Shown here in pieces: positions 19,732-62,591 of a DNA stretch of 64,000 nt. The DNA lies in NCBI RefSeq assembly GCF_907164845.1, contig NZ_OU015430.1, forward strand, positions 610,001 through 674,000, read 5' to 3'. A model generated the notes under the pieces. That model did no database searches and was not told the origin of the DNA. It worked only from the letters and a program-made list of their open reading frames with translations. The translations under genes and the position numbers were made by a program. Position 1 is the first letter of the stretch; each line of letters opens with the position of its first letter. The DNA comes from Lysobacter luteus. GTDB lineage: Bacteria; Pseudomonadota; Gammaproteobacteria; Xanthomonadales; Xanthomonadaceae.

Positions 19732-19802
19732 AGCGCGTGTCGGGTGAGCCGCACACCAAGCGAGTGTCGGGGAGCGACTGTGCGGCTCACCCGACACGCG
19801 CC
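19732..19802 (+). repeat. 71-nt hairpin element, copy 1
   Basis: Two arms (19732-19754 and 19780-19802) pair over 22 bp, with only the outermost position unmatched, around a 25-nt loop (19755-19779). The loop begins ACCAAGCGAGT and ends TCGGGGAGCGACT with a G between them. The same loop recurs in two elements near 62.4-62.6 kb, where the stems differ. This copy sits between hemW and rdgB, both on the minus strand, just after the rdgB stop. Family and function are not recognised. Confidence 0.9.
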
Positions 19803-19823
19803 CCCGCGTCCCGCGAGCGAGTG

Positions 19824-20429
19824 CTAAATGGCCAACCGCTCCCGCAGAACCGCCAACGCCCGCCCACGATGACTGGCGCGCGCCTTCGCCGCCGGATCGA
19901 GTTCGGCCGCCGTCAGCCCGCTGTCCGGATCCAGGAACACCGGGTCGTAACCGAACCCGCCGTTCCCGCGCGGCGCCGTGAGCACACGCCCATGCCATTC
20001 GCCCTGGGCGATCAGCGGGCGCGGGTCTTCCGGGTGGCGCACCAGCACCAGCGTGCAGTGGAAATGCGCGTCGCGCTGATCGTCGGGCACGTGCGCCAGC
20101 GCCGCCAGCAGCTTGTCGATGTTGCGGCCCGCGTCGCTGGGCTCGCCGGCGTAGCGCGCCGAGTACAGACCGGGCGCACCGCCGAGCGCATCGACGCACA
20201 GTCCCGAATCGTCGGCCAGCGCCGGCAGGCCCGTGATCCGTGCGGCGTGGCGCGCCTTCAACAGCGCGTTCTCCACGAAAGTCAGCCCGGTTTCCGGGAT
20301 ATCGTCGACGCCCAACTCGCCCTGCGCGACGAACGTGAAGCCGGCTTCGCCGAGCAGCCGATCAAACTCCGCGAGCTTGCCCGCATTGCCGCTCGCGACG
20401 ACGATCCGGGTCGCGCCCACTGCGCTCAC
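19824..20429 (-). CDS. rdgB: RdgB/HAM1 family non-canonical purine NTP pyrophosphatase
   Basis: Hydrolyses dITP, ITP and XTP to monophosphates, keeping deaminated purines out of DNA and RNA. The 201-residue protein has the family signatures [13 protein letters not shown] near residue 9, [27 protein letters not shown], the GGFGYDPVF loop and SHRGRAL near the end. GTG 20429 overlaps the stop of rph (GTGA), supporting this start and translational coupling. Confidence 0.96.
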
Positions 20430-21178
20430 CCGGCGAGCGCCTCGCGCTGCAGCTGGACCAGCTGCGCAACGCCGGCTTCGGCGAGTGCGGTCATCGCCGC
20501 GAGCTCCTCGCGCCGGAACGCGTGGCCCTCCGCCGTGCCTTGCAGCTCGATGAAACCGCCGCCGTCGTTCATCACCACGTTCATGTCGGTGTCGCAGTCG
20601 CAGTCCTCGGCATAGTCGAGGTCGAGCACCGGCACGCCACGGTAGATGCCCACCGATACTGCCGCGACCGCGCCGAACACCGGCGAACGCCCGTGCGGGA
20701 CCTTGATCGCGCGCGAGGCGACCAAACCGTTGATCGCATCGACCAGCGCCACGTAGGCGCCCGTGATCGCCGCGGTGCGGGTACCGCCGTCGGCCTGCAG
20801 CACGTCGCAATCGAGCGTGATGGTGCGCTCGCCGAGCAGCTTGCGATCGACGCAGGCGCGCAGCGAACGGCCGATCAGTCGCTGGATCTCCAGCGTGCGG
20901 CCGCCCTGCTTGCCGCGCGCGGCCTCGCGGTCGCTGCGGGTGTGGGTGGCGCGCGGCAACATGCCGTACTCGGCGGTGACCCAGCCTTCGCCCTTGCCGC
21001 GCAGGAACGCGGGCACCCGGTTTTCCACGCTGGCGGTGCAGAGCACCCGGGTCTCGCCGAAACTGACCAGTACCGAGCCTTCGGCGTAGCGGGTAAAGCC
21101 ACGCTCGATGCGCACTTCACGCAACTGGTCGGGCGCGCGGCCGCTGGGGCGCGTGAACGCGATGCTGCCGTCTGTCAT
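20426..21178 (-). CDS. rph: Ribonuclease PH
   Basis: Phosphorolytic 3'-5' exoribonuclease that trims tRNA precursors. The full-length 250-residue protein contains [11 protein letters not shown], the [18 protein letters not shown] stretch, [14 protein letters not shown], and the acidic active-site region [17 protein letters not shown]. First gene of the rph-rdgB-hemW set, divergent from yicC across a 67-base gap. ATG 21178 was chosen to match the family N-terminus. Confidence 0.96.
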
Positions 21179-21245
21179 GGCGCCGATTACCGTCTTGGGG
21201 GCGCGCGAGTTTACCATTCGCTCCTTGTCGGCCTTGGGATTCCAG

Positions 21246-22106
21246 ATGATCCGCAGCATGACCGCCTTCGCCAGCGGCGAGCGCGCGACGCAATGGGGCA
21301 CGCTCGGGTGCGAGCTGCGTTCGGTCAACCATCGCTTCCTCGAGATCGGGGTGCGCCTGCATGACGACCTGCGCGCGCTGGAGCCGGTGCTGCGCGAGCG
21401 TGTCACGGCACGGATCAGCCGCGGCAAGCTCGACCTGACCCTGCGCCTGCGTGCGCCGGAAGGCGAGGGTGGCCTGCACGTCAACCTGGTCCGCCTGCGC
21501 GAGCTCAGTGACCTGGCGATCGACCTGGACCCGCGCTTCCCCGGCCTGCATACCGAGTTCACCCAGCTGCTGCAGTTCCCCGGGGTGCTGCAGGCGCCGT
21601 CGACCGACCCCGACGCGCTCAAGGCCGAGGCGCTCGCGCTGCTGGACGAGGTGCTCGACGAATTCGTTGCCGCACGCGAACGCGAGGGCGCGAAACTGGC
21701 AGCCGCGATCAACGAGCGCGTGGACGGCGTCGCCCGCATCGCCGCCGACGTGCGCGGCCTGATGCCGGCGATCCGCGAAGGCCAGCGCATCAAGCTGCAG
21801 GCCCGCCTGGCCGACCTGGCCCAGCCGGCCGACCCCGGTCGACTCGAGCAGGAGCTGGTGATCTGGCTGCAGAAGCTCGATGTCGACGAGGAGCTCGACC
21901 GGCTCGATTCCCATGTCGCCGAGGCGCGCCGCGTGCTCACGCTGCGCGAGGCCGTCGGCCGCCGGCTCGACTTCCTGCTGCAGGAGTTCAACCGCGAGGC
22001 CAACACCCTCGGCTCGAAGTCGGTGGACGCACGCAGCTCGGGCGCGGCGGTGGAGCTCAAGGTGCTGATCGACCAGGTCCGCGAACAAGTGCAGAACATC
22101 GAATGA
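21246..22106 (+). CDS. yicC: YicC/YloC family endoribonuclease
   Basis: Member of the YicC-like family, recently recognised as endoribonucleases affecting mRNA and sRNA stability. The 286-residue protein starts with the signature [12 protein letters not shown] and contains [12 protein letters not shown] near residue 27 and [13 protein letters not shown] near 253, the two conserved ends of the family. It is followed immediately by gmk, whose first ATG overlaps the yicC stop. It lies opposite rph, a frequent neighbour. Confidence 0.93.
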
Positions 22107-22729
22107 CCATGCGCGGAACGCTGTACATCGTCGCGGCGCCGTCGGGTGCGGGGAAATCGAGCATCGTCAACGCGGTGCTCGCGCGCGATCCCAACATCCG
22201 GCTGTCCATCTCGTTCACCTCGCGCGCGCCGCGCCCGGGCGAGCGGCATGCCGAGCACTACCATTTCGTCGATGCGGCCGAGTTCGAGCGCATGGTCGAG
22301 GCGGGTGACTTCTTCGAGCACGCCCGCGTCCACGGCGACTGGAAGGGCACCGCCCGCCAGTCGGTCGAGCCGCAACTGGCCAGCGGCAAGGACGTGTTGC
22401 TGGAGATCGACTGGCAGGGCGCGCGCCAGGTCCGGGCCAAGGTGCCCGGGGCGGTCAGTGTGTTCATCCTGCCGCCGTCGCGAGACGCGCTGGAACAGCG
22501 CATGCGGGTGCGCGGGCAGGACAGCGAGGAGGTCATCGCGCGGCGGCTGGCCGCCGCGCGCGAGGAGATGTCTCACTATGGCGAGTTCGACTACGTCATC
22601 GTCAACGAGCACTTCGCCACGGCGGTCGACGAGATGTGCGCGATCTTCACCGCCAGCCGGCTCCGCCGCGAGGCCCAGGTGGCCCGCCACGGCAGGCTGA
22701 TCAGCCTGCTGCTGGCCAACGACGCCTGA
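22103..22729 (+). CDS. gmk: Guanylate kinase
   Basis: Phosphorylates GMP to GDP using ATP. The 208-residue protein has the P-loop APSGAGKSS near residue 12, the GMP-binding [11 protein letters not shown] and HYHFVD stretches, and [11 protein letters not shown]. The start ATG at 22103 overlaps the yicC stop; a second ATG at 22109 would remove two residues. A 150-base gap with a likely promoter separates it from rpoZ, so gmk probably ends the yicC transcript or runs on into rpoZ. Confidence 0.97.
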
Positions 22730-22804
22730 AGCGGCATTTGGCAGGAGTGGCGGAAGCGGCACTGCGCGCGGCGCCTGTAAGTCATTGATTGGACAAGTCG
22801 ATGC

Positions 22805-22834
22805 TTGCCTCTGGAGGCGGCGGTCGGCTACACT
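22805..22834 (+). promoter_or_regulatory. Putative rpoZ promoter
   Basis: TTGCCT (22805-22810) and TACACT (22829-22834) are separated by 18 bases and lie about 50 bases before the rpoZ start. The match to sigma-70 consensus is moderate. Confidence 0.42.
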
Positions 22835-22882
22835 CCCGTCCCCTTTGTGTACGCATCGACGGCCCCGGCCGCCAGGAGCCCC

Positions 22883-23182
22883 ATGGCCCGCATCACCGTA
22901 GAAGATTGCCTGGAAGTGGTCGACAACCGCTTCGAACTCGTAATGATGGCCGCCAAGCGCGCCCGCCAGCTGGCCAACGGCGTCGAGCCGCAGCTGGACA
23001 ACAGCGAGTCCAACGACAAGCCGACCGTGCTTGCCCTGCGCGAGATCGCCGCGCGCAAGATCGACACCGATTACGTGGACGCGGTCGAGAAGGCCGAGCG
23101 CGAGCGCAAGGAACGCGAGGCGCTGGAGTGGGCCGCCGCGGAAGTGGTTGCCGACGACGACCTGTCCAAGGGCGACGACTGA
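22883..23182 (+). CDS. rpoZ: RNA polymerase omega subunit
   Basis: Small subunit that helps assemble and stabilise RNA polymerase and contributes to ppGpp binding. The 99-residue protein begins [20 protein letters not shown] and contains [11 protein letters not shown] and [12 protein letters not shown], the omega core, with an acidic tail. CAGGAG lies before the ATG at 22883, which was chosen over an upstream open stretch on this basis. It precedes spoT, the same pairing as in Escherichia coli. Confidence 0.97.
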
Positions 23183-23206
23183 CCCGTCCCCCCACTGACG
23201 TGCCGC

Positions 23207-23238
23207 AGAGCCCCGCCAAGCGCGGGGCTCTTGGTTTC
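23207..23238 (+). terminator. Terminator after rpoZ
   Basis: AGAGCCCCGC and GCGGGGCTCT form a perfect ten-base-pair stem with a CAAGC loop, followed by TTGGTTT. It lies between rpoZ and spoT and may reduce read-through. Confidence 0.72.
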
Positions 23239-23292
23239 CGGACGCCTGCCCGCGCATTGCGCCGCGCCGCGCGGCGCGCGTAGATTGCCAGC

Positions 23293-25476
23293 ATGACCCC
23301 CGCCGAGCCCGCCTGTAGCCGTTTCGATGTACCGGTCGCCGACGACGCGGCCCTGCCCGAGTACGTCCGCGAGTTGGAGCAGGCCGCCGCCTATCTGACC
23401 GAGCCCCAGCGCGCGATGCTGCGCCGGGCCTGGGCGATCGGCGCCGCGGCGCATGCCGGGCAGACCCGCAAGTCCGGCGAGCCCTACATCACCCATCCGG
23501 TCGCGGTCGCCTGCGTGCTGGCCGAGCAGCGCCTGGACGTCGAGACACTGGTCGCGGCGATCCTGCACGACACGATCGAGGACACCCCGCTCACGCGCGA
23601 CTGCATCGCCGCGGAGTTCGGCGACACCGTGGCCGAACTGGTCGACGGGGTCACCAAGCTCGACAAGCTCCACTTTCGCGACCGCCAGGAAGCCGCAGCC
23701 GAGAGCTTCCGCAAGATGCTGCTGGCGATGTCGCGCGACCTGCGCGTCATCCTGATCAAGCTCGCCGACCGCCTGCACAACATGCGTACGCTCGGCGCCA
23801 AGAACGCCGAGTCGCGTGCCCGCATCGCCCGCGAGACCCTGGAGATCTACGCGCCCATCGCCCAGCGCCTGGGCATGAACCTGATCAAGGCCGAGCTGCA
23901 GGACCTGGGCTTCCGCGCGCTGTATCCATGGCGCCACGCCGTACTTGAAAAACGCATCCGCACCCAGCCGGTGGTGCGCCGCGAAGCACTGGTCCAGATC
24001 GAGGCCAACCTTGCCCAGCGGCTGGCCAAGGAGAAGCTGCCGCACCGCCTGATCAGCCGGGTGAAATCGCCGTGGAGCATCTACACCAAGATGCACGCCG
24101 AGCACAAAAGCTTCGCCCAGGTGATGGACGTGTTCGGGTTCCGGGTCGTGCTGCGCAGCGTCGCCGACTGCTACCACGCGCTCGGCGTGGTGCACGCCAC
24201 CTACAAGCCGCTGGACGCGCGCTTCCGCGACTTCATCGCGATCCCGAAGGCGAACGGTTACCAGTCCCTGCACACGGTGCTGTTCGGACCCTACGGCTCG
24301 CCGGTCGAGGTCCAGCTGCGCACCGAGGAGATGGACCTGATTGCCGAGAAGGGCATCGCCGCGCACTGGTCCTACAAGGACGGCACCGAAGGCCCCAACA
24401 GTGCCCAGAGCCGCGCCCACAGCTGGATCAGCGGGCTGGTGGAGACCCAGCACGCGGCGGGCTCCTCGCTGGAGTTCCTCGAGAACGTCAAGGTCGACCT
24501 GTTCCCCGACGAGGTGTACCTGTTCAGCCCGAAGGGCGACATCATGTCGCTGCCGCGCAACGCCAGCGCGCTGGACTTCGCCTACGCCGTACACACCGAT
24601 GTCGGCAACCAGGCGGTTGCCGCCCGCGTGGACGGCAAGCTGGTGCCGCTGCGCACCCGGCTTGCCAACGGCCAGCGGGTCGAGATCATCACCGCGCGCT
24701 CGTCGATGCCCAAGCCGCAATGGCTCGAGTTCGTCGTTTCCGGCAAGGCCCGCACGTCGATCCGCCAGCAGCTCAAGCACATCGAGCACGAAGACGCGGT
24801 GCAGCTTGGCCATCGCATGCTCGACCGCGCGCTCGAAGCGCAGGGCACCTCGCTCGAGCGCGTGCCGGCCGAGCGGGTCGAAAGCTATCTGCACGAGCAC
24901 CGGTATCCGCGGCTGGAAGCGCTGCTGGCCGACATTGCCCTGGGCAACCGCATGCCCAGCCAAGTGGCGATGCTACTTGCGCGCGAGCCCGGCACGCGTG
25001 CCACCCCGGAGCGGTCCGGACCGGTGCCGCTGAGCAAGGACCGGATCCTGATCACCGGGACCGAGCGCGGCGTGATCACGTTCGCCAACTGCTGCCTGCC
25101 GGTGCCTGGCGACGAGATCATGGGCTACCACACCGCGGGCAAGGGGTTGGTGGTGCACCGGCTGGACTGTCCCAACATCACCGACTACCGCAAGTCGCCC
25201 GAACGCTGGGTGGCGGTGGGCTGGGACCGCAAGGTCAGCGGCGACTTCAGCGCCGCCCTGCGGATCGAGGTCGACAACCGGCCAGGCGCGCTGGCCCAGG
25301 TCGCCGCCGCGATCGCCGAGGCGGAATCCAACATCGACCGGGTCGAGTACCTCGAGCGCGACACCCACATCGCGGTACTGCGCTTCTCGATCGAGGTAGG
25401 CGACCGGCGCCACCTGGCCAACGTCATCCGCCGGGTTCGCCGGCTGGGCGTGGTGATGGGCGTCCAGCGCATCTGA
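23293..25476 (+). CDS. spoT: Bifunctional (p)ppGpp synthetase/hydrolase
   Basis: Makes and degrades the stringent-response alarmone (p)ppGpp. The 727-residue protein has the RelA/SpoT order: HD hydrolase domain (HDTIEDT near residue 94, intact), synthetase domain ([15 protein letters not shown] near 316), TGS domain ([15 protein letters not shown] near 407) and a C-terminal ACT domain ([18 protein letters not shown] near 658). Because the hydrolase HD is intact, SpoT rather than RelA is the better call. Position after rpoZ supports this. Confidence 0.95.
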
Positions 25477-25482
25477 CCGTGC

Positions 25483-25503
25483 GGGCGGGCTGCTGGCCCG
25501 CCC
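25483..25503 (+). terminator. GC hairpin between spoT and ridA
   Basis: GGGCGGGC and GCCCGCCC form an eight-base-pair stem with a TGCTG loop a few bases after the spoT stop. There is no T-run, so it is a weak terminator candidate. Confidence 0.35.
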
Positions 25504-25551
25504 CCGGCGGCACTCCTACAATGCGGTTCCACGACGCCGCCAGGAGCCACC

Positions 25552-25965
25552 ATGTCCCGCACCCCGATCCAGACCGACCAGGCCCCCGCGGCGATCGGCC
25601 CGTATTCCCAGGCCGTCCGGATGGGCGACACGGTATTCCTGTCGGGCCAGATCCCGCTGGACCCTGCAACCGGCGAGATCGTCGGTGGCGACATCGAGGC
25701 GCAGGCGCGCCGGGCCTTCGACAACCTCAAGGCGGTGTGCGCGGCGGCCGGTGGCTCACTCGACGACGAGGTGGCGCGGCTCGGCCTTTACCTCACCGAC
25801 CTGGGGGACTTCGCCAAGGTCAATGCGGTGATGGCCGAGTATTTCGACGCCCCGTACCCGGCGCGTTCGACCATCCAGGTCTCGGCGCTTCCGAAGGGGG
25901 CGGCCTTCGAGGTCGACGCGATCCTGGTCCTCGCAAACGCGTCCACCGCACACCGGGCCGGCTAG
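25552..25965 (+). CDS. ridA: RidA family reactive-intermediate deaminase
   Basis: Hydrolyses reactive enamine/imine intermediates such as 2-aminoacrylate, protecting PLP enzymes. The 137-residue protein contains [26 protein letters not shown], and [24 protein letters not shown], where the Arg and Glu of the active site are present. CAGGAG precedes the ATG. TACAAT 30-40 bases upstream may be a -10 box. It lies between spoT and recG. Confidence 0.96.
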
Positions 25966-25972
25966 ACCCGGC

Positions 25973-28126
25973 TTGGCCAGGCGCGCCGCCCGCCCCGCAC
26001 CCGCCCTGGCGGCGGTCGGCGATACCGCGCTGACCGCGCTGGCGGGCTGCGGCCCGAAGGTGGCCGAGAAGCTCGCCGCGCGCGGCCTGGCCTGCCTGCA
26101 GGACTTGTGGCTGCAGTTGCCACGGCAGTACGAAGACCGCACCCGGCTGACCCCGATCCGGGCGCTGCAGCCGGGCGTGGCCGCGCAGGTCGAAGGCAGG
26201 GTCGAAGCGGTCGAACGCGGGTTCCGTTACCGGCCGCTGCTGCGGGTGGCGGTCTGCGACGACTCGCAGGGGACGCTGGTGCTGCGCTTCTTCCATTTCC
26301 GTTCGGCGCAGGTCAACCAGTTCCAGCCGGGCGTCCGGATCCGCTGCTACGGCACGCCGCGGCCCGGCCAGAACGGGCTGGAGATCGTCCACCCCAGCTA
26401 TCGCATTCTCGATGATGCCGAGGGGGACGCGCTCGGCGACCGGCTCGACCCGGTGTACCCGGCCATCGAGGGTATCGGCCCGGCTGCGCTGCGACGGCTG
26501 ATCGGGCTCGCGCTCGACCGCCTTCCCGAGGACGGCACGCTGGAGCTGCTGCCGCCGCACGTGCTCGCCTCCATGCAGTTGCCGCCATTGCGCGAAGCAC
26601 TGCTCACCGTGCACCGCCCGTCGCGCGATGCCGACGTCGCGCAACTGCTCGAGGGGCGCCACCCGGCGCAGCGTCGGCTGGTGCTGGAGGAGCTGCTCGC
26701 GCACCACCTGAGCCTTCGCCGCCAGCGCATCGCCCAGCAGGCGCATGCCGCGCCGGTCCTGCACGACGACACGCTGGCGGCGCGCCTGCGTGCATCGCTG
26801 CCGTTCTCACTGACCGGCGCCCAACAGCGCGTGTTCGGTGAAATCCTGGCAGACCTCGCGCAGCCGTCGCCCATGTTGCGCCTGGTGCAGGGCGACGTCG
26901 GCAGCGGCAAGACCGTGGTGGCCGCGCTGGCAGCGATGCTGGCCGTCGCCCACGGCCGACAGGCCGCGCTGATGGCACCCACCGAACTGCTGGCCGAGCA
27001 GCACCTGGCCAACCTGCGCGGCTGGCTGGAACCGCTCGGCGTGCAGGTCGCCTGGCTTGCCGGCAAGGTGACCGGACGGGCGCGCGCGAAGGTGCTCGAA
27101 GCGGTGGCAAGTGGCCAGGCCCAGGTGGTGCTTGGCACCCATGCGCTGATGCAGGAAGGCGTCGCGTTTCGCGACCTGGCCCTCGCGATCGTCGACGAGC
27201 AGCACCGCTTCGGCGTGCACCAGCGCCTGGCACTGCGCGACAAGGGGGGTGGGGGCGAGATCGGCGCGGGCGCCACCGTGCCGCACCAGCTGGTGATGAC
27301 CGCGACGCCGATTCCGCGGACCTTGGCAATGTCGGCCTACGCCGACCTGGACGTGTCCGCGATCGACGAACTGCCGCCCGGCCGCACGCCGGTCCAAACG
27401 GTGGCGTTGAGCGCCGAGCGACGCCCCGAGCTGGTGGAGCGTATCCGTGCGGCGTGCGCGGAGGGCCGGCAGGCCTACTGGGTCTGCACCCTGATCGACG
27501 ACCCCGAGGAGAACGACCGCCCCGGGGCGACGATGCGGATCGAGGCACAGGCCGCCCAGACCACCTTCGAGACCCTGTCGGCGCAACTGCCGGGGCTTCG
27601 GGTCGGACTGGTCCATGGCCGCATGAAGGCCGCCGAGAAACAGGCGACGATGGCCGCCTTCAAGGCCGGCGCGATCGGCTTGCTGGTCGCTACCACGGTG
27701 ATCGAGGTTGGCGTGGACGTGCCCAACGCCTCGCTCATGATCATCGAGAACGCAGAGCGGCTCGGCCTGGCCCAGTTGCACCAGTTGCGCGGGCGGGTGG
27801 GGCGGGGCAGCGCGGCGTCGAGTTGCGTCCTGCTGTACCGGTCGCCGCTGTCGCAGCTGGCGCGGCAACGGCTCGAGACCATGCGCGAGACCAGCGACGG
27901 CTTCCTGATCGCCGAACGCGATCTCGAACTGCGCGGCCCGGGTGAGCTGCTGGGTACGCGGCAGACCGGCCTGGCCGGCTTCCGCCTGGCCGACCTCGCG
28001 CGCGATGCCGACCTGCTGCCCCAGGTCCATTCCATCGGCGAGCGCCTGCTGGCCGAATCGCCAACGGTGGCCGATGCGATCGTCGCGCGGTGGGTAGGCG
28101 GGGCGGTGCGCTATGCCGGCGCCTGA
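25973..28126 (+). CDS. recG: ATP-dependent DNA helicase RecG
   Basis: Branch-migrating helicase that remodels stalled forks and Holliday junctions. The 717-residue protein has the N-terminal wedge/OB domain (about 1-240), Walker A GDVGSGKTVV near residue 307, DEQHRF (the DExH motif II) near 406, TATPIPRTLAM near 439, and the C-terminal helicase motifs TTVIEVGVDVPNA and HQLRGRVGRG. The start is TTG at 25973, eight bases after the ridA stop; no better start is nearby, so the N-terminus is somewhat uncertain. Confidence 0.96.
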   Translation: MARRAARPAPALAAVGDTALTALAGCGPKVAEKLAARGLACLQDLWLQLPRQYEDRTRLTPIRALQPGVAAQVEGRVEAVERGFRYRPLLRVAVCDDSQGTLVLRFFHFRSAQVNQFQPGVRIRCYGTPRPGQNGLEIVHPSYRILDDAEGDALGDRLDPVYPAIEGIGPAALRRLIGLALDRLPEDGTLELLPPHVLASMQLPPLREALLTVHRPSRDADVAQLLEGRHPAQRRLVLEELLAHHLSLRRQRIAQQAHAAPVLHDDTLAARLRASLPFSLTGAQQRVFGEILADLAQPSPMLRLVQGDVGSGKTVVAALAAMLAVAHGRQAALMAPTELLAEQHLANLRGWLEPLGVQVAWLAGKVTGRARAKVLEAVASGQAQVVLGTHALMQEGVAFRDLALAIVDEQHRFGVHQRLALRDKGGGGEIGAGATVPHQLVMTATPIPRTLAMSAYADLDVSAIDELPPGRTPVQTVALSAERRPELVERIRAACAEGRQAYWVCTLIDDPEENDRPGATMRIEAQAAQTTFETLSAQLPGLRVGLVHGRMKAAEKQATMAAFKAGAIGLLVATTVIEVGVDVPNASLMIIENAERLGLAQLHQLRGRVGRGSAASSCVLLYRSPLSQLARQRLETMRETSDGFLIAERDLELRGPGELLGTRQTGLAGFRLADLARDADLLPQVHSIGERLLAESPTVADAIVARWVGGAVRYAGA

Positions 28127-28159
28127 CGCGCGGGTCGGGGCTGCCGGCATAATCGGGCA

Positions 28160-29113: not shown

Positions 29114-29130
29114 TCGTGCGCACAACGGGC

Positions 29131-29160
29131 TTGCGTCGCTCCCGGAACGGCCGCTATACT
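29131..29160 (+). promoter_or_regulatory. Putative rpmE2 promoter
   Basis: TTGCGT (29131-29136) and TATACT (29155-29160) are 18 bases apart and sit about 35 bases before the L31 start. Good sigma-70-type match. No Zur-like dyad was recognised here. Confidence 0.58.
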
Positions 29161-29194
29161 GCCGCGCTTCCCTCCGCATAATTGGTGAGTGCCA

Positions 29195-29437
29195 ATGAAA
29201 GCCGGCATCCATCCTGAATACCGCGAAGTCGTGTTCCAGGACGTGACCAGCGACTTCCAGTTCCTGACCCGCTCGACCCTTGGCAGCAAGGAGTCGGTCA
29301 AGTGGGAGGACGGCAACGAGTACCCGTTGATCAAGGTCGACATCTCGTCGGCGTCGCACCCGTTCTACACGGGCAAGCACAAGATCATGGATACCGGCGG
29401 TCGCGTGGACAAGTTCCGCAAGCGCTACGCCAAGTAA
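29195..29437 (+). CDS. rpmE2: 50S ribosomal protein L31 type B
   Basis: An 80-residue ribosomal protein of the zinc-independent L31 B form. It begins [16 protein letters not shown] and ends with KFRKRYAK. It contains no cysteine at all, whereas type A L31 holds zinc with a Cys motif. ATG 29195 was preferred to the GTG two codons upstream. In many bacteria type B is the zinc-starvation paralogue; no regulatory site for this was seen here. Confidence 0.95.
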
Positions 29438-29458
29438 GCGCAGACGCAAGCTGCATCC

Positions 29459-30984: not shown

Positions 30985-31009
30985 CCGCACGCGACACCCG
31001 GTACACGGA

Positions 31010-31037: not shown

Positions 31038-31055
31038 TTTCGGGCCGTGCGCGCA

Positions 31056-34370: not shown

Positions 34371-35602
<1,232 letters not shown>

Positions 35603-54130: not shown

Positions 54131-54209
54131 CCGGATGGGTCGCGGGGAGGTGTCCGGTATATCGGCGGCATCCTCCCCACCTTGAGTGCGTCCGGCGTTA
54201 CGGTCGGGG

Positions 54210-54259
54210 TTGACAGCAGGAATTACAGGTGTAATTTCAGCTTACGGTTACAGGTGTAA
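54210..54259 (+). promoter_or_regulatory. blaI promoter with two BlaI-type operators
   Basis: The perfect 12-bp dyad TTACAGGTGTAA occurs twice, at 54223-54234 and 54248-54259. It contains TACA-N2-TGTA, the BlaI/MecI operator pattern. TTGACA (54210-54215) with TAATTT 16 bases later forms the promoter around the first copy; the second copy ends four bases before the blaI ATG and includes an AGGTG that may be the ribosome site. This implies autorepression. Confidence 0.82.
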
Positions 54260-54263
54260 ACGA

Positions 54264-54635
54264 ATGCAGATCAGCGAAGCCGAATCGATCGTCATGGACG
54301 TCCTGTGGTCGCGCCATCCGTTGGCTGCCGACGACGTGGTCGCCGCGCTGGCAGAGGCGCGTGACTGGCAGGAACCGACCATCAAGACCCTGCTCAACCG
54401 GCTGTTGCGCAAGGGCGCGATCGCCGCTGAAAAGGACGGACGCCGCTATCTCTACACGCCGGTGCTGCGGCGCGAAGAGTGGCTGCTGGACGAGAGCGAA
54501 GGCCTGCTGGACCGGTTGTTTGGCGGACGCGTGGCGCCGCTGGTCGCGCATTTCAGCCAGCACCGCAAGCTCAGCCACTCCGATGTCGCCGAGCTGCGGC
54601 GCCTGCTAGAGGAGATCGACGATGGTTCCCGCTGA
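54264..54635 (+). CDS. blaI: BlaI/MecI/CopY family repressor
   Basis: A 123-residue winged-helix repressor. It shows MQISEAESIVMDVLWSRHPL at the start, WQEPTIKTLLNRLLRKGAIAAEKDGR (recognition helix and wing) near residue 38 and a C-terminal dimerisation helix. Two operators precede it. It overlaps the following M56 peptidase gene by 14 bases, the layout of blaI-blaR1 pairs, although no beta-lactamase gene is in the window. Confidence 0.93.
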   Translation: MQISEAESIVMDVLWSRHPLAADDVVAALAEARDWQEPTIKTLLNRLLRKGAIAAEKDGRRYLYTPVLRREEWLLDESEGLLDRLFGGRVAPLVAHFSQHRKLSHSDVAELRRLLEEIDDGSR

Positions 54636-55995
54636 CCTGCTGCAGGTGCTGGTGGAACTGGCGGTGGCCGGCGCGGTCGCCACCGCACTGGTGCTGCTGT
54701 TGCGGACACCGCTACGGCGATCGTTCGGCGCCGGGGTGGGTTATGCGACGTGGGCGCTGGTACCGGTTGCCCTGCTGGCGGTGCTGCTGCCGGCGGCGCC
54801 GGCACCCGCGCCGGTGGTCTCGATGGTGCTGGCGATCGGCAACGCGGTGCCGCAGGCGCTTGCATCCGGTGCCACGCCCCCCGACGGGCACGCGGCGGCC
54901 TGGCTGTTGCTGTGGGGCACTGGCGCAGCGGTTGCCGGCGGCGTGTTCGCCCTGCAGCAGCGCCGCTTCCACCGCGCGATCGGGCAGGTCCGGCCACGTG
55001 CCGACGGGCTGTTGCAGGCCGGGGGCCGGTGCGGCCTGCCGGCGACGGTGGGGCTGCTGCCGCCCCGCGTCGTCGTGCCGGCGGGGTTTGACCACGACTA
55101 CACCGACGAGCAGCGGGTCCTGATGGTGGCGCACGAACGCTGCCACGTCCGCCATGGCGACCCGCTGGCCAATGCCGCCTTCGTCGCGGCGCGCTGCGTG
55201 TTCTGGTTCAACCCGCTGCTTCACCTGGCGGCCGGGCAGTTCCGCCACGACCAGGAACTGGCCTGCGACCAGCGCGTGATCGCGTGCCACCCGCATGCTC
55301 GCCGCGCCTACGGCGAGGCGATGTTCAAGGCGCAGTTGGCAGCCATCCCGCTGCCGCTGGGCTGCCACTGGGGCTACGGCCACCCACTCAAGGAGAGAAT
55401 CGCGATGCTCAGGCAACCTGTTCCCACGTTCACCCGCCGGCTCGCTGGCGCCGCCGCAGTGGTGGCATTGACACTGGTCACCGGTTACAGCGCATGGTCG
55501 GCCCAGCCGGCCAGCCAGCAACCCGTGCTGGTCGTTTCGCCGGACGGGGTGCTGCCGGTGCCCCCGCCCGCCCCGCCGGTTCCGCCTGCGCCCAATGCAC
55601 CGCCAGCACCGCCAGCCCCGGCCGCACCGACGATGGCACTGGCGCCTCCGCCGCCACCAGCGCCTAACGCGGCGCCGCCGCCCCCGCCGCCGCCGATGTC
55701 ACCACTTCCGCCACCGGCCAACCGCATGCCGCCGCCGCGCTATCCCAAGAGCGCGGTCGAGCAGGGCATCGACGGCACCGTGGTGCTGATCGTTTCCATC
55801 GACGAGCGCGGGCAGCCGCTGGATGTCGTGGTCGAGAAGTCCGAGCCGGCTGGCGTGTTCGACCAGGCCGCCATGGACGCCGCGATGCAATGGCGCTTCA
55901 CACCCGAGATGAAGGGCGGCAGGAACGTGCCGGGTCGCGTTCGCGTTCCGATCCGGTTCGAAGCCGACGGGAAGGCGCCGGCGGCACAAGGCTGA
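54622..55995 (+). CDS. M56 (BlaR1-like) metallopeptidase fused to a TonB C-terminal domain
   Basis: A 457-residue inner-membrane protein. The N-terminal part has three helices and the zinc peptidase motif HERCH near residue 171-175, as in BlaR1/MecR1. A fourth helix (about 277-293) leads to a Pro/Ala linker (about 310-372) and a TonB C-terminal domain (YPKSAVEQGIDGTVVLIVSIDERG to the end). The penicillin-binding sensor of BlaR1 is missing. A GGAG site precedes the ATG at 54622. It probably cleaves or inactivates the BlaI repressor; the signal is unknown. Confidence 0.9.
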   Translation: MVPADLLQVLVELAVAGAVATALVLLLRTPLRRSFGAGVGYATWALVPVALLAVLLPAAPAPAPVVSMVLAIGNAVPQALASGATPPDGHAAAWLLLWGTGAAVAGGVFALQQRRFHRAIGQVRPRADGLLQAGGRCGLPATVGLLPPRVVVPAGFDHDYTDEQRVLMVAHERCHVRHGDPLANAAFVAARCVFWFNPLLHLAAGQFRHDQELACDQRVIACHPHARRAYGEAMFKAQLAAIPLPLGCHWGYGHPLKERIAMLRQPVPTFTRRLAGAAAVVALTLVTGYSAWSAQPASQQPVLVVSPDGVLPVPPPAPPVPPAPNAPPAPPAPAAPTMALAPPPPPAPNAAPPPPPPPMSPLPPPANRMPPPRYPKSAVEQGIDGTVVLIVSIDERGQPLDVVVEKSEPAGVFDQAAMDAAMQWRFTPEMKGGRNVPGRVRVPIRFEADGKAPAAQG

Positions 55996-56021
55996 TTCCA
56001 GGCGGCCGGGCCGGCCGGTTA

Positions 56022-56843
56022 TCAGCCGCCGAGCGTGCCGTTCAGCAGCGCCGCGAGGTTGGCTCCACCGCGGCGCAACTGGGCTTCGGCCACCGGGCGC
56101 CAGGCGCTCACGTAGCGATCGTCGATCAGCGCACCGGCCACGGGGTACAGGCCGGGGCGCACCACGATGTCGCACGACGCCTCGGCCCAGGCCGCGGCAT
56201 CGGTGCCGACCGGTACTGCCAGCGGCAACGCGCGCAGCTGCGCCAGGTAAGTGGCATCGTCCAGGCCGGCGGTGTTGAGCAGGCCGCTGTCCCACAAACG
56301 ATGGAGGTTGCTGCCCTTGCCGCCGGGGGTGCCGTCGGGCATGCGGACCTGGAGGTCGTTGCCGCCCTTGTCGTGGCCGTGGCCGGCGTGCATCGGCTGG
56401 TGCACGTCGCCGACGAAGTGCACGACGAACTTGAGCGCCTGCCGACGCGCCTCGAGGGGCTGGTCGCGATCGCCAAGGATCGCCGCCTGCGTGCGGATCG
56501 CCTCCACCACGCAATCGCCACCGGCACATGCGGTAGCGGCATCGTAGGCGCAACCGTCGCCGGCGATGTTGACGTAGTGCCACCGCGCGCTGCGCCGGCC
56601 GAGGTCGGGATCGTTGCCTCGCAGATCATCGGCCCAGTTGGCGATGCCGGGCAGGGTGGGGTCGGTTTCGCCTTCCAGCAGCGCGGTGATCTGCTCGCGC
56701 ACCTGCGGGTCAAGCTCGTCCCACGCCAGCGCGGCCACCAGCCGGTGGCCCTGTGGCCCCCAGGCCGCCGCAAGCGACGGCACCACCAACAGGCCGATCA
56801 GGGAGGCGCGGAAGCGGCGGGCAAAGGAGCGGGTATCAGCCAT
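56022..56843 (-). CDS. S1/P1 nuclease, secreted
   Basis: A 273-residue zinc-dependent single-strand nuclease, predicted to be exported. The signal peptide ends before WGPQGHRLVAAL, so the mature protein starts with the Trp that is a zinc ligand in P1 nuclease. Further ligands are visible in HFVGDVHQPMHAGHGHDKGGND and LHRLWDSGL. The start ATG 56843 gives a plausible signal peptide; an open frame upstream was rejected. It converges on the M56-TonB gene and is divergent from gap. Confidence 0.92.
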   Translation of the reverse strand: MADTRSFARRFRASLIGLLVVPSLAAAWGPQGHRLVAALAWDELDPQVREQITALLEGETDPTLPGIANWADDLRGNDPDLGRRSARWHYVNIAGDGCAYDAATACAGGDCVVEAIRTQAAILGDRDQPLEARRQALKFVVHFVGDVHQPMHAGHGHDKGGNDLQVRMPDGTPGGKGSNLHRLWDSGLLNTAGLDDATYLAQLRALPLAVPVGTDAAAWAEASCDIVVRPGLYPVAGALIDDRYVSAWRPVAEAQLRRGGANLAALLNGTLGG

Positions 56844-56952
56844 CGTGCGGGTCCGGAGCCGTGGGGCGGTTCCGGGAAGGATAGCGATGACCGGAAAGAG
56901 TGGGTGGGTCGCACTCGTTGCCGGCGATTCGCGCAAAAGGTCCGTGCATCGG

Positions 56953-58029
<1,077 letters not shown>

Positions 58030-58054
58030 GTCGCCGCGCCGCGCCCGGAACCGG

Positions 58055-58084
58055 AGGCCCCGCCATGTGCGGGGCCTTTTGTTT
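58055..58084 (+). terminator. gap terminator
   Basis: AGGCCCCGC and GCGGGGCCT form a nine-pair stem with a CATGT loop followed by TTTTGTTT. Typical Rho-independent terminator 25 bases after the gap stop. Confidence 0.85.
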
Positions 58085-58183
58085 CCAGCCGGTGGCCAGG
58101 CCTGTACGGAGGGCGGCGGCGGGTGCAGGTTTCGCGCCGCCGGCACAGGCACCAGCATTCGCGTGGACCTCGCCGCGCGTGGC

Positions 58184-59191
58184 TCAGAAGGCCGCGTCGA
58201 ACTCGACCTCACCCGACACGCCCACCTGGTAGGCCGACACCCGACGCTCGAAGAAGTTGGTCACCTCCTGCACGTCCTGCAGGTCCATGAAGCCGAACGG
58301 GTTGGTCGCGCCGAAATGCCGCGGCAATCCAAGCTGGCCCAGGCGCTGGTCGGCGCAGTACTCCAGGTACTGGCGCATGTCCTTGAGCGACAATCCGGCA
58401 ACGCCCCCGGACAGCACGTCCTCGGCAAAGCGCATTTCGCAGTCGACCGCTTCGCCGAGCATGCGCACGACGTCTTCCTGGAACGTGCTGTCGAACAGGC
58501 CCGGTTCTTCCTTGCGAACGGTGTCGATCACTTCGAACGCAAAGGCCATGTGGCAGCTCTCGTCGCGGAACACCCAGTTGGTGCCCGACGCCAGGCCATG
58601 CAGCAGCCCACGCGAGCGCAGGTAATAGACGTAGGCGAACGCGGCGAAGAAGAACAGCCCTTCGATGCAGCAGGCGAAGCAGACCAGGTTGAGCAGGAAC
58701 TGGCGGCGTGCCTCACGGGTCTCGATGCGCGTGAGGCCCTGGATGGAATCGATCCACCTGAAGCAGAACTCCGCCTTGGCGCGGATGGACGGGATGTTCT
58801 CGACCGCGTCGAAGGCCCTCGCGCGCTCTACTGGATCCGGCAGGTAGGTGTCGAGCAGGGTCAGGTAGAACTGCACGTGCAAGGCTTCCTCGTACAGCTG
58901 ACGCGACAGGTACATGCGCGCCTCGGGAGCGTTGATGTGCTGGTAGAGGTTGAGCACCAGGTTGTTGGCGACGATCGAGTCGCCGGTGGCGAAGAATGCC
59001 ACCAGCCGTTCGACCAGGTGCCGCTCCGCCGGGCCGAGCTTGTCGCGCAGGTCGTTGACGTCGAGCGAGAAGTCGACTTCTTCGACCGTCCACGTGTTGC
59101 GGATCGCGTCGCGGTACATGTCGTAGAAGCGCGGGTAGCGCATGGGCCGCAGGGTGAGGTCGAAGCCGGGGTCGAGCAGGTGGGTGGACAT
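58184..59191 (-). CDS. nrdB: Ribonucleotide reductase class Ia beta subunit
   Basis: Radical-generating subunit of aerobic ribonucleotide reductase. The 335-residue protein keeps all iron ligands: FATGDSIVANN (Asp), EEALH (Glu and His), CCIEGLFFFA (Glu) and RDESCH (Glu and His). The radical tyrosine is present four residues after the histidine (EALHVQFY). AAGGATCC lies before the ATG. It follows nrdA across a 132-base gap that carries a REP-like pair. Confidence 0.95.
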   Translation of the reverse strand: MSTHLLDPGFDLTLRPMRYPRFYDMYRDAIRNTWTVEEVDFSLDVNDLRDKLGPAERHLVERLVAFFATGDSIVANNLVLNLYQHINAPEARMYLSRQLYEEALHVQFYLTLLDTYLPDPVERARAFDAVENIPSIRAKAEFCFRWIDSIQGLTRIETREARRQFLLNLVCFACCIEGLFFFAAFAYVYYLRSRGLLHGLASGTNWVFRDESCHMAFAFEVIDTVRKEEPGLFDSTFQEDVVRMLGEAVDCEMRFAEDVLSGGVAGLSLKDMRQYLEYCADQRLGQLGLPRHFGATNPFGFMDLQDVQEVTNFFERRVSAYQVGVSGEVEFDAAF

Positions 59192-59234
59192 GGTGGATCC
59201 TTGGGATTGGTTGGACGACGCGGGCGTGTGCGGA

Positions 59235-59312
59235 TGTAGGAGCGGCTTCAGCCGCGATCTGGAATGGTTCGCCCCGCGCCGGTTCCCGATCGCGGCCGAA
59301 GCCGCTCCTACA
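59235..59312. repeat. REP-like inverted pair between nrdA and nrdB
   Basis: Two 25-bp units in opposite orientation (59235-59259 and 59288-59312) match at 24 of 25 positions and begin TGTAGGAGCGGCTTC. Each is itself an imperfect palindrome, the form of repetitive extragenic palindromes known from Pseudomonas and xanthomonads. Transcribed within the nrdAB gap, the pair could fold as one large hairpin. Confidence 0.85.
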
Positions 59313-59323
59313 AGAGCGGGGCG

Positions 59324-61810
59324 TTACTGACAGGCTTCGCAGCTCTCCGGGTTCTCCAGTGAGCAGGCAATCGCCTCATCCACCGGCGGAGCACCCACCG
59401 CAGCGGCCCCGACGGTCGCCTTGGCGATCCGCGTCGCCGGGCGCGAACGCAGGTAGTACGTCGTCTTCAGGCCTTTCTTCCACGCGTACATGTACATCGA
59501 CGACAGTTGCCCGATGTTCGGGTTCTCGATGAACAGGTTGAGCGACTGGCTCTGGTCGATAAAGGCGCCACGGTCGGCGGCCATGTCGATCAACGAGCGC
59601 ATGGGCAGTTCCCAGGCGGTGCGGTAGACCTGCCGCAATGATTCGGGGATCGCGTCGATGCCTTGGATCGAGCCGTCCGCGCGCTTGATCGCGTCGCGCA
59701 GCTCAGGCGTCCACAGGCCGAGCGTCTTCAGCTCTTCGACCAGGTAGCGGTTGACCACGATGAAGTCGCCGGACAGCGTCTCGCGCTTGAACAGGTTCGA
59801 CACCTGCGGCTCTATGCACTCGTAGCAACCGGCGATCGAAGCGATCGTCGCGGTCGGCGCGATCGCGACCAGCAGTGAGTTGCGCAGGCCATGCTTGCCG
59901 ATACGCGCACGCAGCTCGGCCCAGCGCCCGGGATCGTCGGGCTGCACATCCCAGGCTTCGAACTGGAGTTCGCCGTTCGCGGCGCGGGTATCGGCGAAGG
60001 CGGGGTGGCCACCGTGCTCGAGCGCCAGCTCGTTGGACGCCGACAGCGCGTGGAAATAGATTTCCTCGGCGATCTTCTTCGACAGTGCCCGCGCGGGTTC
60101 GGAATCGAACGGCAAGCGCAGCTTGAAGAACACGTCCTGCAACCCCATCGCGCCGAGCCCGACCGGCCGCCACTTGAGGTTGGCGCGGCGCGCGGTCTCG
60201 ATCGGGTAGAAATTCAGGTCGATCACGCGATCCAGCTGGCGCACCGCGAGACGAACCGTGTCGGCCAACCGTTCGAAATCGAAGCGACCCGCCTCACCGT
60301 GCAGTGGGCCATCGGCGAACACCTCGACGTGGTGGCCCAGGTTGATCGAACCGAGGTTGCACACCGCGGTTTCGTCCTGCGAGGTGACCTCCAGGATCTC
60401 GGTGCACAGGTTCGACAGGTGCACGACGTTGCCGGCCTTTGCGGTCTGGTTGCAGGCGCGGTTGCACTTGTCCTTGAAGTTCATCCAGCCGTTGCCGGTC
60501 TGCGCCAGCGTGCGGATCATCCGGCCGTACAGCTCGCGCGCCTTGACCTGCTTGTGGGCGAGCCCGGCGGCCTCGGCGGCGGCGTAGGCGCGGTCGAAGG
60601 CGTCACCGAACAGATCGGTCAGCTGCGGTGCCCCGGCTTTCATCAGCGTGGCCGGGTCGAACAACGACCACATCGCGTCTGCCTCGACCCGGCGCATGAA
60701 CTCGTCGGGGATCCAGTTGGCGAGGTTGAGATTATGGGTGCGCCGGGCGTCGTCTCCGGTGTTGTCGCGCAGTTCCAGGAACTCCTCGACATCGGCATGC
60801 CACGGCTCCAGGTACACGCATGCCGCGCCCTTGCGCTTGCCGCCCTGGTTAACCGCCGCAACCGAGGCATCGAGCGTCTTCAGCCACGGCACGATGCCGT
60901 TGCTCAACCCATTGGTCGAACGGATCAGCGAGCCGCGCGAGCGGATGCGGGTGTAGCTCAGGCCGATGCCGCCGCTGAACTTGCTCAGCTTCGCGACATC
61001 CGTGTAGCGCTGGTAGATGCCCTCCAGCGAATCCTCGGGCGAGTCGAGCAGGAAGCACGACGACAACTGCTCATGCGTGGTGCCGGCGTTGAACAGCGTC
61101 GGCGACGACGGGAGGTAGTCCAGCTGCGCCATCCGCCGGTACAGCGCCAACGCCTCCGGCACGTCCTCGCTGAGCGCACAGGCGACACGCAGGAAGAACT
61201 GCTGCGGGGTTTCGATCACCGTGCGCGCTGTCGGGTGGCGCAGCAAGTAGCGGTCGTACAGGGTGCGGATGCCGAAGTAATCGAAGCGATGGTTGAGGCT
61301 GTCGTCGATCGCGTCATTGAGCTTGCGCGCATTGGCCTGGACGAAGCCGACCAGGCGGGCGTTGATCAGCCCGAGCTCGTGCCCGCGCTGGACCGACTGC
61401 GAGAACGCGTTGATGTCGATCGCGGCGACTTCCTTTTCGATCACGCCGGCCAGCAAGCGCGCGGCAAGGCGGCCGTATTCGGGTTCCTCGGCGGTCAGCA
61501 GTGCGGCGGTGCGGATCGACAGTTCGTCGAGCTCCCGGGTCGTGGCCCCGTCATACAGGCCCGAGATGGTGCGTGTGGCGACGCGCATCGGGTCGACGGC
61601 GTGCAGGCCTTCGCAGCAGCGGCCGATCGCACGGACGATCTTGTTGAGGTCGACCGGCTCGTGCGCGCCGTTGCGCTTGGTCACGCCCATCCCGAGCGTG
61701 GCGGCGGGTGGGGTGAGGATGAGGGCGGGAGAGGCGGGCGGGGTGGCGGCTACGCGGACGACGGTATCGGGCACGACGGGTTCGGTCGCGGTGTCGGGGG
61801 CGGTGCTCAT
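59324..61810 (-). CDS. nrdA: Ribonucleotide reductase class Ia alpha subunit
   Basis: Catalytic subunit reducing ribonucleoside diphosphates. The 828-residue protein has an N-terminal Pro/Thr/Ala extension, an ATP-cone (VTKRNGAHEPVDLNKIVRAIGRC near residue 43) for allosteric dATP control, the active-site cysteines in LSSCFLLD and NLCTEILE...VCNLGSINL, and a redox C-terminus SCEAC. Start at ATG 61810 behind a GGAG. A cobalamin riboswitch and NrdR boxes lie upstream. The end of nrdB and the start of nrdA bracket a REP pair. Confidence 0.95.
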   Translation of the reverse strand: MSTAPDTATEPVVPDTVVRVAATPPASPALILTPPAATLGMGVTKRNGAHEPVDLNKIVRAIGRCCEGLHAVDPMRVATRTISGLYDGATTRELDELSIRTAALLTAEEPEYGRLAARLLAGVIEKEVAAIDINAFSQSVQRGHELGLINARLVGFVQANARKLNDAIDDSLNHRFDYFGIRTLYDRYLLRHPTARTVIETPQQFFLRVACALSEDVPEALALYRRMAQLDYLPSSPTLFNAGTTHEQLSSCFLLDSPEDSLEGIYQRYTDVAKLSKFSGGIGLSYTRIRSRGSLIRSTNGLSNGIVPWLKTLDASVAAVNQGGKRKGAACVYLEPWHADVEEFLELRDNTGDDARRTHNLNLANWIPDEFMRRVEADAMWSLFDPATLMKAGAPQLTDLFGDAFDRAYAAAEAAGLAHKQVKARELYGRMIRTLAQTGNGWMNFKDKCNRACNQTAKAGNVVHLSNLCTEILEVTSQDETAVCNLGSINLGHHVEVFADGPLHGEAGRFDFERLADTVRLAVRQLDRVIDLNFYPIETARRANLKWRPVGLGAMGLQDVFFKLRLPFDSEPARALSKKIAEEIYFHALSASNELALEHGGHPAFADTRAANGELQFEAWDVQPDDPGRWAELRARIGKHGLRNSLLVAIAPTATIASIAGCYECIEPQVSNLFKRETLSGDFIVVNRYLVEELKTLGLWTPELRDAIKRADGSIQGIDAIPESLRQVYRTAWELPMRSLIDMAADRGAFIDQSQSLNLFIENPNIGQLSSMYMYAWKKGLKTTYYLRSRPATRIAKATVGAAAVGAPPVDEAIACSLENPESCEACQ

Positions 61811-62055
61811 GGGTGGACTCCGGTGCATGGCGCACGGTTCGCCACCCTTCCCTCGAGGGCGACGCACGGAGGCACGCAGCGCCGGCGCCGGACGGCGCAC
61901 CGGAGCGGCCAAGCCCCCGAGGGCTGGAGTGGTTCGGATCGACGGGGTGTCGTGGCCGGTCCGGACGGGCGGCAGCGGCCCGATGGCCAGCGCACGACAC
62001 CGACCGTCTTCCCCCGAAGACTCCCTGGCCGGTCACCGCGCGGTGTGCTTCGCGC
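61811..62055 (-). other. nrdA leader between riboswitch and start codon
   Basis: About 245 bases of GC-rich untranslated leader. An ATG at 61912 opens a frame continuous with nrdA but shows no homology, so it is not used as the start. GGAG ten bases before ATG 61810 is the probable ribosome site. No clear terminator hairpin was found, so the expression platform of the riboswitch could not be defined. Confidence 0.6.
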
Positions 62056-62246
62056 GGCTGTCGGCAGGTCTTCGGGCTCTGGACGCGGACGGCGGGCCGT
62101 CCTCCTACTGCTCGCCGCTTCCCGGGGCTTGGGCCCCAGTGCAATGGCGAGGTTCGTTTCCACTACCGCTGCGGGGCAGCGCCGGAGTCGACACGGGGTC
62201 TGGACCGGCTTCCCTTTTCAGCCGCCTGCGAGGGCGACACCGACGA
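62056..62246 (-). promoter_or_regulatory. Adenosylcobalamin (B12) riboswitch upstream of nrdA
   Basis: Read on the minus strand the region has the conserved blocks in order: GGTGTCGCC near the 5' end, GGCTGAAAAGGGAA near 62230-62212, CTGCCCCGCAGCGGT near 62180, a CACTGGG-like segment and the B12 box AGCCCGAAGACCTGCC at about 62078-62063. GTCGG at the 5' end can pair with CCGAC after the box to close the structure. A class Ia reductase under such control is typically repressed by B12 where a B12-dependent class II enzyme also exists. Confidence 0.9.
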
Positions 62247-62247
62247 T

Positions 62248-62294
62248 GCACAACATATCGGGTTGCCGTAGCTTGTCAACACTAAATGTTGTGG
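62248..62294 (-). promoter_or_regulatory. nrdA promoter with two NrdR boxes
   Basis: On the minus strand, CCACAACATTTAGTGT (62279-62294) and ACCCGATATGTTGTGC (62248-62263) each match the 16-bp NrdR box (ACACTATATATAGTGT type) at most positions. Their starts are 31 bp apart, the usual three helical turns. TTGACA (62274-62279) and TATGTT (62252-62257) with a 16-base spacer form the promoter; the second box covers the -10. The predicted transcription start coincides with the riboswitch 5' end. A 16-bp spaced pair like this is a strong NrdR arrangement. Confidence 0.85.
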
Positions 62295-62334
62295 TGTTTA
62301 GGCCGGTCAGACATAAGGGCGGATGGATCGGAGG

Positions 62335-62405
62335 GGCGGCTGCCGGGTGGCCTGGACAGTCGCTCCCCGATACTCGCTTGGTGTCCAGGCCACCCGGCAG
62401 CCGCC
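62335..62405 (-). repeat. 71-nt hairpin element, copy 2
   Basis: Arms at 62335-62357 and 62383-62405 are perfect 23-bp complements around a 25-nt loop (62358-62382). Read on the minus strand the loop is the same as in the other copies (ACCAAGCGAGT, A, TCGGGGAGCGACT). It lies in the gap between nrdA and pgk, inverted relative to copy 3. Confidence 0.92.
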
Positions 62406-62412
62406 TGGGAAG

Positions 62413-62480
62413 AACACGGGCGCTTGTGAAAACAAGCGAGGGCAGTGCTTGAGGCTTCGGCACTGCCCCCAACACGGGCG
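62413..62480. repeat. Two small hairpins between 10-bp direct repeats
   Basis: AACACGGGCG occurs at 62413-62422 and again at 62471-62480. Between them lie CGCTTGT-GAAA-ACAAGCG (62421-62438, a seven-pair stem with a GNRA loop) and GGGCAGTGC...GCACTGCCC (62440-62468, nine pairs, 11-nt loop). The first hairpin overlaps the left repeat by two bases. This segment separates hairpin elements 2 and 3. No protein-coding sense was found. Confidence 0.75.
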
Positions 62481-62520
62481 ACGCGTCTGCTCTTGCTCTT
62501 CCGGTCGCGATGAATCCGAA

Positions 62521-62591
62521 GGCGGGGGCGCGGTGTTGTCGCAACCAAGCGAGTATCGGGGAGCGACTTGCGGCAACACCGCGCCCCCGCC
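62521..62591 (+). repeat. 71-nt hairpin element, copy 3
   Basis: Arms at 62521-62543 and 62569-62591 pair over 23 bp (one G-U type mismatch) around the shared 25-nt loop (62544-62568). Loop sequence is identical to copy 2 after reverse complementing. The arms share little with copies 1 and 2 beyond a GGCG start and GGTG at positions 12-15. Confidence 0.92.

Follow-up and report, generated by a model that had tools for sequence, protein, structure and literature searches.

Hairpins in the Lysobacter luteus window

The 64,000-nt stretch of the Lysobacter luteus genome analysed here (contig NZ_OU015430.1, positions 610,001 to 674,000; hereafter the window) carries three copies of a hairpin with a nearly invariant loop, one lying alone and two forming a pair between divergent genes (62335-62591). 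The copies and the matches to a covariance model of the family are as follows.

19733..19801, plus strand: a single hairpin (hairpin copy 1) flanked by rdgB-like and hemW-like genes; perfect stem of 23 bp, loop of 23 nt in its G variant
19731-19803: covariance-model match to hairpin copy 1, 80.8 bits
62335..62405, minus strand: hairpin copy 2, left member of the divergent pair; perfect stem of 24 bp, loop of 23 nt; model match of 89.1 bits
62406..62520, no strand: spacer between copies 2 and 3, 115 nt
62521..62591, plus strand: hairpin copy 3, right member of the divergent pair; perfect stem of 24 bp, loop of 23 nt; model match of 86.6 bits

The loop of all three copies reads CC-AAGCGAGT(A/G)TCGGGGAGCGAC, 23 nt with an A-T closing pair, and only one purine varies, whereas the arm sequences are unrelated among the copies and each stem is perfectly paired. 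The initial annotation, made from the letters of the window, had described three 71-nt hairpins with a near-invariant loop and differing yet complementary arms, and this observation was confirmed for every copy, the middle one (62335-62405) lying on the minus strand; its geometry of 23-nt arms and a 25-nt loop was replaced by arms of 23, 24 and 24 bp and a loop of 23 nt. The loop pattern matched three times in the window and never in 100 shuffles, and the DNA folding z-scores of the hairpins were -8.3, -7.7 and -6.1, thus excluding chance as their origin. A scan for arms of at least 15 with at most one mismatch and loops of 8-45 nt detected five hairpins in the window: the three copies, a GTAG-tagged repetitive extragenic palindromic (REP) pair at 59235-59312 and one hairpin inside a called gene (17019-17076). 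The whole L. luteus genome (2.77 Mb, single contig) has seven copies, six of which form three divergent pairs with distances of 135, 189 and 190 nt.

Stem covariation and the folded strand

Searching its own and related genomes for the loop, as had been recommended, yielded further copies whose stems covary. Although the degenerate loop pattern made no demand for a stem, 135 of the 144 exact matches with full flanks formed at least 14 of 23 Watson-Crick stem pairs, and 123 formed at least 18. Eight further matches had, on reading, complementary arms out of register, and the sole stemless match (L191) came from a Gottesmanbacteria metagenome-assembled genome (MAG). Stems reach 36 bp outside the window. 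In a set of 80 non-redundant copies (arms less than 75% alike, preselected for at least 16 Watson-Crick pairs), 95.4% of cells were paired, a figure that the preselection favours. Both sides changed in 24 of the 25 stem pairs, and the covariation score was 1.075 compared with 0.206 for shuffled and 0.151-0.185 for slid arms; the proposal that the structure is kept through compensating stem changes was thus upheld. The GGCG start and the GGTG at arm positions 12-15 that the window copies had been said to share did not extend to the family, appearing merely as G/C preferences in the 80 copies.

The 1840 inner stem cells comprised 1740 Watson-Crick, 55 G-T or T-G and 10 A-C or C-A combinations (p 1.2e-8). 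As a G-T pair on one strand is an A-C mismatch on the other, we infer from this excess that the relevant folding is that of the strand reading AAGCGA in its loop. The loop holds two AGCGA words; its variation in 153 copies was mainly at positions 7, 9, 10 and 13, and positions 7 and 13 varied together. Longer loops were also encountered. In Pseudohaliea rubra, L330, L323 and L338 are long forms in which about 15 extra nt, containing CCCGGCCGGG, are inserted on the 3' side of the loop, and similar long model matches occurred in G571. In the variant family of G362 (L216-L233) the loop is 9 nt longer, and several G362 copies have another inverted hairpin upstream, the loop of which also contains two GCGAG words.

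Genomic arrangement and inverted pairs

According to gene calls from a simple in-house gene caller, 199 of 204 copies lay outside called genes, with 99 of the intergenic copies single and 100 paired. Where a single copy had a called upstream gene, that gene was co-directional in 48 of 88 cases, showing no strand preference. Neighbouring copies less than 450 nt apart (79 cases) were arranged predominantly in the '-+' order (65, with a median distance of 170 nt), the remainder being '+-' (6), '++' (4) and '--' (4). In a survey of REPs, a dimer with the tag inside is termed tail-to-tail, and head-to-head dimers are commoner than tail-to-tail ones in most REP families (PMC3733652); the hairpin pairs are tail-to-tail dimers. 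Unlike these common inverted pairs, L137 and L147 of Lysobacter concretionis are direct arrays of three same-strand hairpins with a spacing of 174-237 nt. The neighbours that recurred across 47 genome groups were of the housekeeping type (hslV/hslU/xerC, SDR, glyA and ettA), and no mobility-like gene was seen among them by eye, the neighbour proteins having had no family-library run. At L078, L084, L099 and L125, in both Luteimonas and Halioglobus, hairpins lie about 90-270 nt from an ettA-like ABC-F gene.

This arrangement bears on whether the element acts as RNA. A transcript hairpin, in a 3' or 5' untranslated region or a small RNA, with a conserved loop that is bound by a protein or a second RNA, would account for a conserved loop on a covarying stem and for the tolerance of G-U-type pairs on one strand. 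However, the upstream gene is co-directional for just 48 of the 88 single copies, paired copies lie on opposite strands so that a transcript would contain one functional hairpin, and the pair in the window lies between divergent genes. Moreover, only 55 of 1840 inner pairs are G-T, which is low for RNA helices, and no Rfam family matched above its cut-off. Because of the lack of orientation bias and the opposite-strand pairs, the RNA reading is weakened, and we consider it quite unlikely. The initial interpretation was thus partly supported: a hairpin of single-stranded DNA, or a small mobile element, agrees with the covariation, the G-T bias, the '-+' pairs and, as described below, the empty sites and the unchanged loop at shared sites, whereas a cis-acting structured RNA does not agree with the absence of orientation to genes and of an Rfam match above cut-off.

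Distribution, dispersal and empty sites

The loop with at most three mismatches was present in 22 of 198 genomes of the family, including six of nine in the genus of the window, which we take to be Novilysobacter; in four of the 22 (G090, G141, G161 and G170), the stem was absent or doubtful on reading. The degenerate exact pattern occurred in at least 117 stretches, and the matches listed included Lysobacter/Novilysobacter, Luteimonas, Thermomonas, Halioglobus and Pseudohaliea, together with MAGs labelled Gammaproteobacteria, Burkholderiaceae and others; viral contigs gave no exact match to the loop pattern. Under stricter filters, the covariance model detected the family in two of 369 genomes of the class, L. 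luteus itself and G362 with its longer-loop variant. In 16 genomes picked for already carrying copies, model hits numbered 106 (a Halioglobus MAG), 75 (P. rubra, of the Halieaceae), 48, 38, 35, 20, 19, 18 and fewer, with a minimum of 2.

Similar hairpin pairs recur at unrelated places in Luteimonas, where the repeated sequence ends at the right hairpin. The region from the B12 riboswitch to pgk lacks the hairpin pair in G055, G152 and G169, rdgB adjoins hemW without a hairpin in G003 and G185, and G133 has hairpins at both sites, all by reading. The pgk neighbour of the window is retained by G133, G055, G152 and G169 alone, and the right side of rdgB was readable in G133, G563, G003 and G185 alone, with several loci reversed.

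In the three hairpins common to L. luteus and G133, eight of 72 pairs had changed on both sides and four on one. The loop was unchanged (0/23) in ten orthologous comparisons, not mutually independent, which covered five sites (G109, G152 and G169) and had at least one aligned flank differing by 7-25%. Left out of the ten were a misaligned tandem-copy group, a G185/G169/G152 group (loop 0/23) and one comparison (loop 0) that had no well-aligned flank, and two L054 comparisons (loop 1/23) with unaligned flanks. Since the loop was unchanged at shared sites with diverged flanks, it appears to be under constraint even in elements that do not move.

Two further explanations can be weighed here. In the first, the hairpins are domesticated chromosomal sites that spread long ago and are kept for the host, where a nucleoid, topoisomerase or replication protein binds them when extruded. 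The unchanged loop at shared sites in G109, G152 and G169 agrees with this, as do the 75 model hits that P. rubra keeps with no RAYT found; the patchy distribution (22 of 198 family genomes, in four of which the stem is lacking or doubtful, and two of 369 class genomes under the stricter filters) and the sister species that live without the sites do not, and we judge this explanation unlikely. In the second, template switching between the arms keeps the stems paired without selection. Such quasi-palindrome correction is a known process and would yield two-sided changes at fixed sites, but it cannot maintain the loop, and it predicts equal G-T and A-C leftovers where 55:10 was observed; it is highly improbable as the explanation of the paired stems.

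Tags and loop classes

In P. rubra, GTAG or GCAG directly preceded the stem in 31 of the 51 copies read (of 75). The 17 '-+' pairs of this species have, by eye, one TCTC-like and one CCC-like arm, with L314 and L327 intermediate, and loop class matched within 16 of the 17. Over all groups, A|G was found at the stem start of 144 of 252 copies, from 7/23 in Thermomonas to 43/49 in P. rubra, and of four of the seven copies in the L. luteus genome. In 101 of 158 copies outside P. rubra, the base before the first stem G was an A, compared with 21.5% A further upstream, a difference somewhat inflated by the definition of the stem edge. The tags and loop classes fit a trans-acting reader that would combine two or more specificities within a single genome, and the classes offer a natural specificity series.

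A conserved outward CCGGAAA..TGCGA also lies beyond the stem in P. rubra. This sequence, along with the occurrence of the units as inverted pairs, would suit the long palindromic termini of a DDE or other insertion sequence, in the manner of miniature inverted-repeat transposable elements. In such ends, however, the difference between the arms of a pair, of which the loops alone match, would not be expected, nor would half of the intergenic copies being single (99 vs 100 paired); no target duplications were seen by eye and no element with a transposase was found. We thus regard an origin from insertion-sequence ends as very unlikely.

Comparison with known systems

The initial annotation knew of no named family with this form. 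No Rfam family exceeded its gathering cut-off over the three window copies, and matches at E up to 5 across 62300-62640 were all below cut-off and mostly to microRNA families; the form nevertheless resembles the REP/bacterial interspersed mosaic element (BIME) class, most clearly in Pseudohaliea with its GTAG head. Among the titles and abstract openings listed from a library of open-licence papers, REP papers appeared but no description of the hairpin family did, and the loop letters matched no paper there. In integron attC sites a folded single strand is recognized and the stem sequence is largely free, with a conserved stem base, R'/R'' (GTTRRRY / RYYYAAC), and no fixed 23-nt loop. The hairpins here are the reverse, having a fixed loop and, in the 80 aligned copies, no R''/R' consensus at the stem base.

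The family shares with REP, BIME and REPIN elements its mostly intergenic, strand-specific hairpins, genome-specific variants and inverted dimers of unlike partners, as well as the GTAG/GCAG head in Pseudohaliea. It differs in its 23-36 bp free-sequence stems and near-invariant 23-nt loop, in a copy number that is often low (2 to 106 across the 16 genomes), in a tag that is weak in Xanthomonadaceae, and in the absence of hairpins near 39 Y1 loci and of a detected RAYT in nine of 18 hairpin genomes. Of the traits of GTAG-tagged REPs, an extragenic dispersed hairpin palindrome and inverted dimers were found, whereas the stem and loop size lay outside the tabulated range (stems of 5-13 bp and loops of 2-20 nt in PMC3733652) and no RAYT gene flanked by the repeats was found. 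Because of these two departures, and because the full tag is confined to Pseudohaliea, the hairpins were not classed as members of the REP family, though they may be an extreme branch of REP/BIME elements.

A further likeness concerns insertion into genes. The survey describes interruptions of uvrA genes, caused by two REPs or by REP dimers (PMC3733652), and in the Burkholderiaceae MAG G576 (L307, 4006-5907) a UvrA-like frame contains two hairpins, with perfectly paired stems of 26 and 36 bp, and is open throughout. CGTC REPs and Rickettsia palindromic elements, which the abstract of the same paper says have no dedicated transposase (PMC3733652), are likewise palindromic repeats that can sit in genes; CGTC REPs have 8-9 bp stems, 4-5 nt loops and a CGTC tag, none of which was seen in the present hairpins.

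Search for a partner enzyme or autonomous element

REP elements are moved by RAYTs and are believed to need a domesticated Y1 transposase. PF01797 was detected in 10 of 18 hairpin genomes, three of eight hairpin-free genomes and 13 of 20 further hairpin genomes. The more sensitive NF047646, run on the 18 hairpin genomes, gave RAYT matches in nine, among them G152, G169 and G185, whose divergent RAYT-like genes had escaped PF01797; a lack of RAYT in these three was therefore dropped. Nine of the 18, including P. rubra (75 hits) and G571 (19 hits), had no RAYT by either NF047646 (E<=0.1) or PF01797, though draft assemblies can miss a gene and absence from a single assembly is not proof. The initial annotation had suggested looking for a linked tyrosine transposase, and none linked to the hairpins was found: with two AGCGA words plus a stem as the criterion, none of the 39 Y1 loci, of which 35 belonged to hairpin genomes and three were shortened by contig ends, had a hairpin within about 1.5 kb. 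RAYT was rejected as the partner on these two results, and the putative partner protein is probably not a standard RAYT. A REP-like family at 75 copies where no such transposase gene was found suggests a second route to moving or keeping hairpin repeats.

Three gene-sized '-+' units were rejected as autonomous elements: in G362 the two hairpins, separated by 2.2 kb, flank ordinary genes (on reading, pyrB/pyrK-like), those 1.9 kb apart in G576 lie within the UvrA-like frame, and those 5.4 kb apart in L. concretionis (L180) enclose biosynthetic-looking genes. No closer gene-sized '-+' unit was seen by eye among 129 model hits of three genomes. The reverse transcriptase profile PF00078 matched in four of 16 genomes, three with hairpins (48, 38 and 18 hits) and one without, and in neither genome with 75 or 106 hits; a reverse-transcribed element was rejected on this absence.

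Proposed nature of the element

Considering these results, we propose that the hairpins are probably dispersed, non-autonomous mobile DNA elements working like REP/BIME (REPIN) elements. The single strand 5'-(A)CC-AAGCGA-RTNWCGKGG-AGCGAC-(T) would fold into the hairpin, and a trans-acting protein would read the loop, perhaps together with A|G at the stem base, requiring the stem solely as a duplex. Two opposite-orientation hairpins, usually 110-200 nt apart, would form the common unit. Single-stranded DNA would thus be the active form, and upkeep at old sites would reflect recognition by the putative protein. With a fixed loop and a free stem, such protein-DNA recognition is directly testable. 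It is also conceivable, at somewhat less than an even chance, that the hairpins represent a new class of mobile or maintained single-stranded DNA hairpins read by the loop rather than the stem, with a non-RAYT protein, specificity split into loop classes (AG..G, AA..T and TG..G) and two inverted hairpins treated as one unit.

Several points weigh against the mobile-element proposal. No enzyme was identified, and hairpins enclosing a mobility gene, as in an autonomous copy, were not seen. The stems of 23-36 bp and the 23-nt loop exceed the REP range printed in PMC3733652. In four of the seven Luteimonas pairs tested, the repeat extends about 70 nt past the left hairpin; the hairpins are therefore not always unit ends, and the copied unit can exceed the pair. 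Target-site duplications were not seen by eye in P. rubra, which fits a single-strand mechanism without proving one. The conservation of the loop between genomes is partly built in, as copies were retrieved by the loop, and sites with a loop diverged by more than three mismatches would escape the orthologous comparison. Finally, Thermomonas (7/23) and other Novilysobacter (17/42) show the A|G tag weakly, and part of the excess of this tag stems from the stem-edge definition.

Other features of the window

The pair at 59235-59312 is an ordinary GTAG REP, GTAGGAGCGGCTTCAGCCGCGATC plus its inverse, and the same REP also lies within the spacer of another hairpin pair of the genome (L004). A cobalamin riboswitch matched by Rfam occupies 62045-62259 on the minus strand, with the hairpin pair on one side and, on the other, a large gene of the same strand; judged by inspection, this gene probably encodes a ribonucleotide reductase.

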